Source of the DNA: Campylobacteraceae bacterium
Lineage (GTDB): Bacteria; Campylobacterota; Campylobacteria; Campylobacterales; Sulfurovaceae
NCBI GenBank assembly: GCA_027100635.1
Contig: JAMOOQ010000012.1
Span: 1 to 64,000 of the forward strand
Length of the DNA: 64,000 bases
Direction: 5' to 3'
Shown: in pieces, positions 2,419 to 46,160 of the stretch
Layout: every line of letters begins with the position of its first letter
Numbering within the stretch: the stretch's first letter is position 1
Notes under the pieces: generated by a model
Database searches by the model: none
What the model was told of the DNA's origin: nothing
What the model saw: the letters and a program-made list of their open reading frames with translations, nothing else
Program-made: the position numbers and the translations under genes

Positions 2419-3450
2419 TCAACCTTTATTATACTTTTTTAAATACCACTCAATAGTTTTAACTATACCACTATCAAAATCCTCATCAGCTTTCCAGCCC
2501 AACTTCTCTTCTACTTTTGTAGCATCAATTGCATATCTTCTATCATGTCCTGCTCTATCTTCTACAAATATTATTAAATCTTTATAGCTAGATTCTAAAT
2601 CAAGTTTAGAATGACGAGGTTTTATTTTATCTAAAATTGTACATATAGTATCTACAATTTGTAAGTTTGTTCTCTCATTTCTTCCACCAATATTATACAC
2701 ATTAGATGCCTCACCTTTGTGATAAACTAAATCAATCCCTTTACAGTGGTCTAATACGAATAACCAATCACGAATATTCTTACCATCTCCATAAATTGGA
2801 ATAGACTCTCCTGCTAAAGCTTTTCGTATAATAGTTGGAATAAGCTTTTCATCGTGTTGTTTTGCACCATAGTTATTACTACAATTTGTAATCACACTAT
2901 TCATACCATAAGTCTCTTGATAACTTCTTACAATCATATCACTTGATGCTTTTGAAGCAGAATATGGAGAGTTTGGAGCATAAGGAGTCTCTTCTGTAAA
3001 CAGGTCAGTTTCATTTAAAGTACCATAAACTTCATCTGTTGAGATATGATGAAATCTACAATTTTCATATCCATCTTTATAATCAAAAGGTTTATTCATC
3101 CAATATTTATATGCCACATCAAGAAGTGTAAACGAACCATTTACATTTGTTTCTATAAAAACAGAAGGATTTTTGATAGAGTTATCCACATGAGATTCTG
3201 CTGCAAAGTGAATTACACCTCTTACATCATACTCATTAAAGATAAATTCAACTAATTCACGATTACAAATATCACCTTTAATAAATTTATATCTAGGATT
3301 ATTCTCAACCTCTTTAAGATTTTCTAAATCACCTGCATAAGTAAGCAAATCTAAATTTACAATCTTATATTCTGGGTATTTATCCATAAAATATGGCACA
3401 AAATTACTACCAATAAACCCTGCACATCCTGTTACTAAAATTGATTTCAT
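2419..3450 (-). CDS. rfbB: dTDP-glucose 4,6-dehydratase (RmlB), with palindromic-element insertion
   Basis: Second step of dTDP-L-rhamnose synthesis: dTDP-glucose to dTDP-4-keto-6-deoxyglucose, NAD-dependent, cytosolic. Extended SDR family: N-terminal Rossmann motif GCAGFIGSN, active-site TDE (HHISTDEVYGT) and YSASKAS, and C-terminal DRAGHDRRYAID, all as in RmlB. Length 343 residues is normal. Between KIKPR and SYKDLI there is an extra stretch, HSKLDLES, that most RmlB proteins lack. Its DNA (2589-2615) is a copy of the 27-bp palindromic repeat found elsewhere here. The insertion is in frame, so the enzyme is probably intact. The ATG overlaps the rfbD stop by one base. Confidence 0.97.
   Translation of the reverse strand: MKSILVTGCAGFIGSNFVPYFMDKYPEYKIVNLDLLTYAGDLENLKEVENNPRYKFIKGDICNRELVEFIFNEYDVRGVIHFAAESHVDNSIKNPSVFIETNVNGSFTLLDVAYKYWMNKPFDYKDGYENCRFHHISTDEVYGTLNETDLFTEETPYAPNSPYSASKASSDMIVRSYQETYGMNSVITNCSNNYGAKQHDEKLIPTIIRKALAGESIPIYGDGKNIRDWLFVLDHCKGIDLVYHKGEASNVYNIGGRNERTNLQIVDTICTILDKIKPRHSKLDLESSYKDLIIFVEDRAGHDRRYAIDATKVEEKLGWKADEDFDSGIVKTIEWYLKKYNKG
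2589..2615. repeat. 27-bp palindromic element inside rfbB
   Basis: TAGATTC at one end, GAATGAC at the other, with complementary stem halves around a CAAG centre (TTCTAAAT and TTTAGAA). It matches the intergenic copies at 13826, 20010, 26355 and 32308 in its ends and length. On the coding strand it is read in the open frame as HSKLDLES. Confidence 0.9.
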
Positions 3451-12772: not shown

Positions 12773-13828
12773 TTGTTATTATATATACATATTCCATATT
12801 GTGATTCTAAATGTCACTATTGTAGCTTTAACTCTTATGTTGATAAATTTGATACAAGAGAAACCTATATGGATGCTCTTTTTTATCAAATAAAATCAGA
12901 ATTAAAAAAGTTTAATACCACTTTTAAAAGCATAGAGTCAATTTTTATTGGAGGAGGAACTCCATCTACTATAAATCCTAAACTATATATTAAAATATTT
13001 AATTATTTAAGACCATATATGATGGATGATTGTGAAATTACAACAGAAGCTAATCCAAATTCTGCAACTAAAAACTGGTTAGAGGGGATGAAAGATATAG
13101 GGGTAAATCGTATAAGCTTTGGAGTTCAAAGTTTTGATAACCAAAAATTAAAATCCCTTAATCGTAATCATAATAAAGATGATGCAATTAATGCAATTAC
13201 TTCGGCAAAAGAGATTGGATTTAAAAATATTTCGCTAGATTTAATCTATAATTTTAAAAATGATACAAAAGAGTTAATTTTAAGTGATATAAATCAAGCT
13301 TTTAAACTTGATATAAATCATATCTCTGCCTATGAGCTTACAATAGAAGATGGCACAAAATTCTCATCAACTCCAGAGGTAAGAAAAGATGATTTTGATA
13401 TAGCACAATTAATATCAAATGAGATACAAAAACGAGGATTCCCTCAATATGAAATCTCTAATTATGGCTTATACCAATCTGTTCATAATCAAGGATATTG
13501 GCTCTTAAAAGATTATATAGGAGCAGGTGCAGGTGCTGTAGGATTTAAAAAAAATAAAAGATTTTATCCCCATACAGATATTGATTTATATATAAAAGAA
13601 CCATTATTTCAACGAATTGAAGAGATTACACAAGATGATATTTTATTTGAAAAACTTTTTTTAGGATTTAGAAGTAAAGTTGGAGTAGATAGAGATATAT
13701 TAAATCTAAATATGCAAAAACAAGCTGACTTCCTCTGCTTAAACAATAAACTTTACCTTAAAAATAATAGATACTATAACTCAAATTACTTTTTAACTGA
13801 TGAGATTGTTTTGTATATTACTCAGTAG
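12773..13828 (+). CDS. hemW: Radical SAM HemW-like protein
   Basis: 351 residues, HemW family (heme chaperone related to coproporphyrinogen III oxidase HemN). The radical SAM cluster Cys are C10, C14 and C17 in YCDSKCHYCSF. IFIGGGTPS and RISFGVQSFDNQKLKSLNR follow, both family signatures. The start is TTG at 12773. The stop codon TAG (13826-13828) is the first three bases of a 27-bp palindromic element, so the original C-terminus may have been trimmed or altered by the insertion (inference). Confidence 0.92.
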   Translation: MLLYIHIPYCDSKCHYCSFNSYVDKFDTRETYMDALFYQIKSELKKFNTTFKSIESIFIGGGTPSTINPKLYIKIFNYLRPYMMDDCEITTEANPNSATKNWLEGMKDIGVNRISFGVQSFDNQKLKSLNRNHNKDDAINAITSAKEIGFKNISLDLIYNFKNDTKELILSDINQAFKLDINHISAYELTIEDGTKFSSTPEVRKDDFDIAQLISNEIQKRGFPQYEISNYGLYQSVHNQGYWLLKDYIGAGAGAVGFKKNKRFYPHTDIDLYIKEPLFQRIEEITQDDILFEKLFLGFRSKVGVDRDILNLNMQKQADFLCLNNKLYLKNNRYYNSNYFLTDEIVLYITQ

Positions 13829-13852
13829 ATTCCGTGTCAAGCACGGAATGAC
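13826..13852. repeat. 27-bp palindromic element at the hemW/hydrolase junction
   Basis: TAGATTC + CGTGTCAAGCACG + GAATGAC. Its first TAG is the hemW stop. On the minus strand its internal TGA (13837-13839) ends the facing hydrolase gene. Stem ATTCCGTG/CACGGAAT. It could also act as a bidirectional terminator, though no T-run is present. Confidence 0.95.
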
Positions 13853-18073: not shown

Positions 18074-20035
18074 ATGAGTCCATTTGAAATACAGATAAAT
18101 GATGGTTGCCTAAGGAGTGATATAGAACTTGATGAAGTTTTTATGTTTGATGAACTACAAAAAATTGGAGCGTTAGAAGAGATTGATTCCCTTTGGAGAT
18201 TAAAAAGTATATATAGATCAGGGCGATTATATCTATCAAAGCCACCAAATACAAAGGCTTTTATTGAGTCTCAAACAAAAGAACAAAGAGATTTGCTTAT
18301 TGAAGAGTCTGATATAGGTAGTGCAAAAAATGGTGATGTGGTTGTGGCAAGACGAATTATTGCCAAAAGGGGACGAGCCTCTGCAAAAATTGTAATGGTT
18401 ATAAAAAGAGCTTATGATTTTTCTATTGTTTATACCATAATTGATGAAGATAAAAAGTTATCAATTATAGATATAAAAACAGCTTTGCCGACAGATGCTT
18501 ATATGGAAGGTATGGATATTAGTATTCTAAAAAATGGTACTGTGTTAAAAGTTGATAATGAAGATGGAAAAGTTATAGAGATTTTGGGGATTTTAAGTGA
18601 ACCAAAAACAGATGAAAAAATATCTTTGGCTTTATATAATAGAAAAGATAAATTTGATGAAGATTGTATATCTCAAGCTAAAGCGATAGATAATTTTGTG
18701 GATAAAAGTAAATATCCTAACCGTATAGATTTAACAGATTTGAACTTTTGTACAATTGACCCAGTAACTGCAAAAGATTTTGATGATGCAATATTTTTTG
18801 ATAAACAAAACTATATATTATATGTAGCTATTGCTGATGTTAGTGAGTATGTTGAGTATTTCTCACCAATTGATATAGAAGCAAAAAGACGAGCATTTAC
18901 CACATATCTTCCTCATAAATCTTTCCCTATGCTTCCACGTGAATTAAGTGAAAATTTGTGTTCGCTTAAACCAAAAGTTGATAGATTGGCTTTTGTGGCA
19001 AAAATATATTTAGATAGAAGTTCTTTAAAACCGATGAAAGAGGAGTTTTTTGAGGCTGTTATACACTCTAAAAGAAGATTTAATTATGATGAAATTGATT
19101 CTTATATTGCAGGTAAAAATGCTATTGGAGTGGATAAAGAGATGTTAAAAGCTCTGATGCCTCTTTATGAAATAACCAAAAAGCTAAAAACTTTAAGGGT
19201 AAAAGATGGTTTTGATTTTAGAACAAAAGATATTAGAATATCAATTGATAATGATCATCTTTTAAAAAGTACAACAGCAGAAAGTTCAACTCCATCTCAC
19301 TCTTTAATAGAAGAGTGTATGCTTTTGGCAAATCAAGCAAGTGCAAAACGATTTGAAAAAGGTATTTTTAGAGTTCATGAAGCACCTCAACTAATTAAAC
19401 TAGAAAAGCTATTAGAAGATTTGGCAGTTATTGGCTTATTTATTAAGGAGTATGAAGATTCTAAATCTCTGATTCGTGCAATTCAAAAAGAAGCAAAAAA
19501 GTTGGATATGTCAAGTGAAGTTGATGGGATGATAATAAAGTCTTTAAAACAAGCATCTTATACTGATGAAAATGTGGGACACTTTGGGCTTGGATTTACT
19601 CACTATAGCCACTTTACTAGCCCAATTAGAAGATATAGCGACTTAATACTTCATCGCCTTATTAAAGCTCAATTAAATGATGATGAGAAAGAGAAAGAGT
19701 ATTTAATGCGAAATATAAAATCTTTATGTGCAAGAGTAAGTGATATTGAACGACAAAGCACAAAAGCTGAGTGGGACTTTAGAGATAGAAAATTTGCAAG
19801 ATGGGCAAAACAAAATGAAGGCTTGATGTTTGATGGAGAGATTATAGAGGTAAAAGATAGCAGTGCAAAAGTCTTGCTTGATGGAGAGATTCAAGGTGTG
19901 GTTGTAAATATTAGAAATGATGATGTTTCACTATTTGATAAAGTTAGAATTATTATAGAAAGAGCAGATATTGCATCAACAGATATTATGGCAAATTTGG
20001 TTGTAAAAATAGATTCTGAATCAAGTTCAGAATGA
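18074..20035 (+). CDS. rnr: Ribonuclease R (RNase II/R family)
   Basis: 3'-5' exoribonuclease. 653 residues, short as in epsilonproteobacteria. The RNB domain shows FCTIDPVTAKDFDDAIFF (acidic metal ligands), FTTYLPHKSFPMLPREL and HFTSPIRRYSDLILHRL. A C-terminal S1-like domain includes GEIIEVKDSSAKVLLDGEI. The last residues DSESSSE and the TGA stop are encoded by a 27-bp palindromic element (20010-20036). The native C-terminus may therefore have been replaced after the S1 domain. Followed by holA, as in Helicobacter. Confidence 0.95.
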   Translation: MSPFEIQINDGCLRSDIELDEVFMFDELQKIGALEEIDSLWRLKSIYRSGRLYLSKPPNTKAFIESQTKEQRDLLIEESDIGSAKNGDVVVARRIIAKRGRASAKIVMVIKRAYDFSIVYTIIDEDKKLSIIDIKTALPTDAYMEGMDISILKNGTVLKVDNEDGKVIEILGILSEPKTDEKISLALYNRKDKFDEDCISQAKAIDNFVDKSKYPNRIDLTDLNFCTIDPVTAKDFDDAIFFDKQNYILYVAIADVSEYVEYFSPIDIEAKRRAFTTYLPHKSFPMLPRELSENLCSLKPKVDRLAFVAKIYLDRSSLKPMKEEFFEAVIHSKRRFNYDEIDSYIAGKNAIGVDKEMLKALMPLYEITKKLKTLRVKDGFDFRTKDIRISIDNDHLLKSTTAESSTPSHSLIEECMLLANQASAKRFEKGIFRVHEAPQLIKLEKLLEDLAVIGLFIKEYEDSKSLIRAIQKEAKKLDMSSEVDGMIIKSLKQASYTDENVGHFGLGFTHYSHFTSPIRRYSDLILHRLIKAQLNDDEKEKEYLMRNIKSLCARVSDIERQSTKAEWDFRDRKFARWAKQNEGLMFDGEIIEVKDSSAKVLLDGEIQGVVVNIRNDDVSLFDKVRIIIERADIASTDIMANLVVKIDSESSSE

Positions 20036-20071
20036 CAAACAACCGTCATTCCGTGCTTGACACGGAATCTA
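20010..20071. repeat. Pair of 27-bp palindromic elements, head to head
   Basis: First copy 20010-20036 (TAGATTC + TGAATCAAGTTCA + GAATGAC) contains the rnr stop at 20033-20035. Second copy 20045-20071 is inverted (GTCATTC...GAATCTA) and differs in its stem bases. Only eight bases separate them. The second ends 13 bases before the holA ATG. Confidence 0.95.
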
Positions 20072-30916: not shown

Positions 30917-30989
30917 GGGTACCCACAAGGGGATACCCCTACGGCTAATTAACATTTTGTAGGGGCAATCCCTCGGTTGCCCTTTGGAA
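30917..30989. repeat. GGGCAACC-type palindromic repeat, composite copy
   Basis: Two blocks: GGGTACCCACAAGGGGATACC (30917 on, ending CCTAC at 30942) and GTAGGGGCAATCCC...GGTTGCCCTTTGG (30959-30987). GGCAA/TTGCC pair as a stem. Similar blocks occur at 34678-34735, 46133-46160 and 47066-47141. In the sppA-moeA gap. Confidence 0.85.
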
Positions 30990-31043
30990 ATTATTTATTT
31001 TCTAATCCTAAGATAGTAGTAATAAATTTAATAAGGGTAAAAT

Positions 31044-46105: not shown

Positions 46106-46132
46106 AGAGTTAAGGATTAAAATATAAATAAC

Positions 46133-46160
46133 TTCCAAAGGGCAACCGAGGGATTGCCCT
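46133..46160. repeat. GGGCAACC-type palindromic repeat, simple copy
   Basis: TTCCAAAGGGCAACCGAGGG then ATTGCCCT. It shares GGTTGCCCTTTGGAA with the 30959-30989 block in reverse, and its flank CTTGAATTTTAAAAATAATTT resembles that at the end of mfd. Confidence 0.85.

Follow-up and report, generated by a model that had tools for sequence, protein, structure and literature searches.

The convergent hemW-like and alpha/beta hydrolase genes described here both stop within one 27-bp palindrome. The most probable explanation (probability about 0.85) is that a single repetitive extragenic palindrome (REP) of the CGTC type occupies a very short convergent gap, at the natural ends of both genes, and that its stop codons fall in frame by chance. 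The window, which is the whole stretch of DNA analyzed, comprises 64,000 nucleotides of a Campylobacteraceae genome, and the junction contains the following features.

12773..13828, plus strand: hemW-like radical SAM gene, 351 aa, named in the preliminary description; full-length relatives in most of 60 genomes searched
13826..13828, plus strand: TAG stop of hemW, corresponding to bases 1-3 of the element
13826..13852, no strand: single CGTC-type REP element, with its tail (TAG/CTA) towards hemW and its head (GTC) towards the hydrolase
13829..13849, no strand: hairpin predicted from sequence and RNA folding; 8-bp stem (13829-13836 with 13842-13849) and 5-nt loop (13837-13841)
13837..13839, minus strand (read 13839-13837): TGA stop of the hydrolase, within the hairpin loop
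13837..14556, minus strand: alpha/beta hydrolase gene, 239 aa, an open reading frame

The element reads TAGATTCCGTGTCAAGCACGGAATGAC at 13826-13852, or GTCATTCCGTGCTTGACACGGAATCTA in its minus-strand form. The preliminary description had stated that hemW ends on the first TAG of the element, that the facing hydrolase ends inside the same element, and that stops occur in some frames on each strand; the reading frames bear out all three statements. Stops are found in two of the three frames read from the hemW side (TAG at base 1, TGA at base 24) and in one frame read from the hydrolase side (the TGA in the loop), leaving three of the six frames open. The four C-terminal residues of the hydrolase, SFRA, are element-coded. 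RNA folding of the junction palindrome gave -11.7 kcal/mol versus a shuffle mean of -2.8, with a stable hairpin predicted on both strands (-11.7 and -9.9 kcal/mol), and an Rfam search of the window returned no match to a known RNA family.

The junction element belongs to an abundant family, with about 141 matches genome-wide (73 and 68 by strand) in an assembly that is 77% complete; a reversed control pattern had none, and four other genomes of the genus contain 0-2 copies. The unit, as derived from 111 good copies, consists of (T/C)GTC, a stem of ATTCCGTG or ATTCTGAA with its complement, a 5-nt loop, and CTA. The tag agrees with that of CGTC-type REPs, GTC being conserved at 96% or more per base and preceded by T (66%) or C (33%), as does the hairpin, for which an 8-9 bp stem beginning with AT and a 4-5 nt loop are expected: a perfect 8-bp stem occurs in 85 of 113 copies, the loop being CTTGA in 83 and TTTAA in 26. 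The head-to-head organization of the class is also found, with plain head-to-head pairs at 40 of the 53 multi-copy sites and a tail-to-tail pair at one. A 3-nt tail is present, but it is CTA in most copies, as opposed to mostly CCA in published CGTC REPs. Judged by these sequence features, the element is a CGTC-type REP apart from its CTA tail, and this genome, with its approximately 141 copies, is an addition to the hosts of such repeats.

Resemblance is closest to the CGTC-2-type REPs (Di Nocera et al. 2013, PMC3733652), which have in common with this element a (C/T)GTC tag, an 8-bp stem beginning with AT, a 5-nt loop, a predominance of head-to-head dimers, a location in convergent or codirectional gaps near gene 3' ends, and some intragenic copies; they differ by their usual CCA tail and their mainly alphaproteobacterial hosts. 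The same study places Neisseria dRS3 (CGTC-1) and Rickettsia RPE-4/RPE-6 in the CGTC superfamily, but these represent other families, clustered in Neisseria and often intragenic in Rickettsia. CGTC-type REPs are expected to lack a transposase gene of their own. This genome has one Y1 transposase match, at C38:19049, with the nearest of the individually listed copies about 1.4 kb away, and no such match was found in a genome with 27 element copies (G016). A mobilizing RAYT was considered and set aside, as the presence of a Y1 transposase does not track copy number across genomes. The exact 27-base element also occurs in assemblies labelled Sulfurimonas, Methylotenera, Patescibacteria, Elusimicrobia, Planctomycetota, Nitrospirae, Flavobacterium, Clostridiales, and Melainabacteria, a distribution suggesting spread between phyla, some of which could be accounted for by metagenome binning errors.

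The genomic context of the copies was counted in stretches fetched around individually listed copies, and these counts are hence biased towards element sites; about 41 of the approximately 141 copies were not listed individually, some of them falling inside the fetched stretches, and outside the window any open reading frame of at least 90-100 codons was taken as a gene. Among the resulting 85 element sites, 31 are convergent, 34 codirectional, and 6 divergent, with 3 inside genes and 11 at contig edges. The median distance from an element to a facing 3' end is 32 nt, versus 121 nt to a 5' end, a placement typical of CGTC-type REPs, and 51 of the 106 facing gene ends lie within 30 nt of an element or overlap it. 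Four whole contigs, which provide an unbiased test, contained elements in 8 of 30 convergent gaps, versus 12 of 258 codirectional and 1 of 33 divergent gaps (Fisher p = 2e-4 for convergent against all other gaps). Codirectional gaps are shorter, however, and per gap base the enrichment of convergent over codirectional gaps is roughly twofold. This preference for convergent gaps and gene 3' ends speaks for that side of the preliminary description. Tails tend to point to gene 3' ends: for 32 single copies, 11 tail-facing and 3 head-facing ends lie within 60 nt.

Two other sites in the window illustrate how copies may contact coding sequences. The copy at 2590-2616 lies inside a dTDP-glucose 4,6-dehydratase gene (2419-3450, minus strand) and is read through in frame, approximately as RHSKLDLESS, at a place where the two best homologues of solved structure have 2 and 6 fewer residues. 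A head-to-head pair at 20011-20071, folding as a single long hairpin (-28 kcal/mol), lies at the end of a gene of 653 aa; the first copy supplies both the C-terminal residues IDSESSSE and the TGA stop of this gene.

The proposal that the element closes both genes was only partly sustained: both stops are inside it, but the hemW stop is found at the same position in 29 relatives without the element. None of the 58 relative loci examined carries a copy. The hemW stop falls 3 residues past the conserved LY/LF here and 2-4 residues past it in these relatives, so that comparison of the C-termini, the check put forward with the proposal, recovered the same stop position within one codon, which for hemW is the outcome named beforehand as refuting it. 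The hydrolase tail past the G-D/N/E-H motif has 19 residues here and 15-26 in 29 relatives; the terminal residues are poorly conserved in all of them, and, on this sequence comparison, the hydrolase stop position is indistinguishable from theirs. Both genes thus end as they do in relatives lacking the element, which lies at gene ends already in place rather than setting them. Its position at both ends is, as far as these alignments indicate, a tidy coincidence, not a gene-closing device.

A single REP at pre-existing gene ends would have reached this gap by insertion, the relatives, with at most 63% hemW protein identity, being too distant for an empty site to be recognized at the DNA level. 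Its frame happens to give TAG to hemW, which has retained its ancestral stop position, and TGA to the hydrolase, whose variable tail now ends with the element-coded SFRA and is of ordinary length. Such an insertion was presumably tolerated because neither gene was damaged. Gaps this short are available: 7 of the 30 convergent pairs in the four whole contigs are no more than 28 bp apart, six of them without an element. What counts against this explanation, besides the distance of the relatives, is that the double-stop arrangement is unique among the sites examined, and that the tail is CTA, where CGTC repeats in the literature usually have CCA.

Stop supply by REPs, and REPs lying close to both ends of convergent genes, were already published in 2013, and in this respect the junction is ordinary. 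TAG stops are often provided by GTAG REPs, and most REPs in convergent gaps have both gene 3' ends closer than 20 bp (PMC3733652). As with GTAG REPs, the element end gives a TAG stop to the adjoining gene; GTAG REPs differ in having another tag and belonging to another superfamily, and the present element additionally provides the opposite gene with a TGA from its loop. For compact, REP-rich genomes, this calls for caution, as a repeat may sometimes carry the stop codons of its neighbors without defining gene ends, the proteins then bearing element-coded tails, such as the SFRA and IDSESSSE described above.

Among the other explanations, it is unlikely that the element marks a chromosome rearrangement junction at which hemW and the hydrolase were brought together by recombination of two REP copies. 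The two genes were adjacent in no relative locus examined, as this scenario would predict, and the convergent pair is therefore peculiar to this genome among those compared. However, gene order near both genes varies widely among relatives. In several of these, hemW is followed by a tatB-like gene, which here lies at C40:11219, with the nearest listed copy about 4.7 kb away; as this is not a reciprocal REP junction, a REP-mediated inversion was rejected.

That the element acts as a bidirectional transcription terminator which replaced a normal one, as had been proposed, appears quite improbable. The hairpin is stable on both strands and no other terminator-like site was found near the junction, but the bases directly after the stem are GACAAAATTTG on the hemW strand and CTACTGAGTAA on the hydrolase strand, with no U-tract on either, and the element therefore does not resemble an intrinsic terminator, in which a U-tract would come directly after a GC-rich hairpin. 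Across 113 copies, at least five T were found on the tail-out strand in 36 (32%), versus 24% of intergenic controls, and on the head-out strand in only 2 (2%). Ribosomes must, in addition, melt the stem before reaching the hydrolase stop. Replacement itself finds no support, no ancestral terminator being demonstrable because hemW and the hydrolase are neighbors in none of the relative loci examined.

A further possibility, which we regard as improbable, is that the hairpin, with one stop at its foot and one in its loop, serves the two genes in common as a translational brake or mRNA-stability switch. E. coli REPs no more than 15 nt from a stop codon were reported to stall ribosomes, in work cited in PMC12306157. 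As described there, these hairpins lie at or over the stop, as in the present case (0 nt from TAG, with TGA in the loop), but E. coli REPs belong to the GTAG superfamily. Both stops being within this 15-nt zone, a translational or mRNA-stability effect would be possible by analogy; since one hairpin holds both stops, a ribosome that terminates on one or the other mRNA has to encounter or open it. If a single REP lies at natural gene ends, as preferred here, any mRNA role would most likely be that of other 3'-end REP hairpins, slowing ribosomes or blocking exonucleases near the stop, and not that of a terminator.

The idea that the element, by having stops on both strands, can enter gene ends and terminate the two genes, and is retained there by selection for that reason, is very improbable: the two stops at this junction and the enrichment near gene 3' ends are what it would predict, but of the 106 facing gene ends, only 7 have their stop in an element (the TAG in 3, the distal TGA in 3, and the loop in 1), half of the frames are open, as the read-through dehydratase copy illustrates, the hemW stop position is ancestral, and no second double stop was found. 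The hemW/hydrolase junction is the only one among the 85 element sites in the stretches examined, and in 123 exact copies from other genomes, TAG is given to an open frame of at least 100 codons in 6 and the loop TGA in 3, with no copy providing both.

The window also contains an inverted repeat unrelated to the REP family, a pair of 47-nt sequences at 30963-31009 and 46113-46159 that are 94% complementary, lie 15 kb apart, and contain GGGCAATCCCTCGGTTGCCC.
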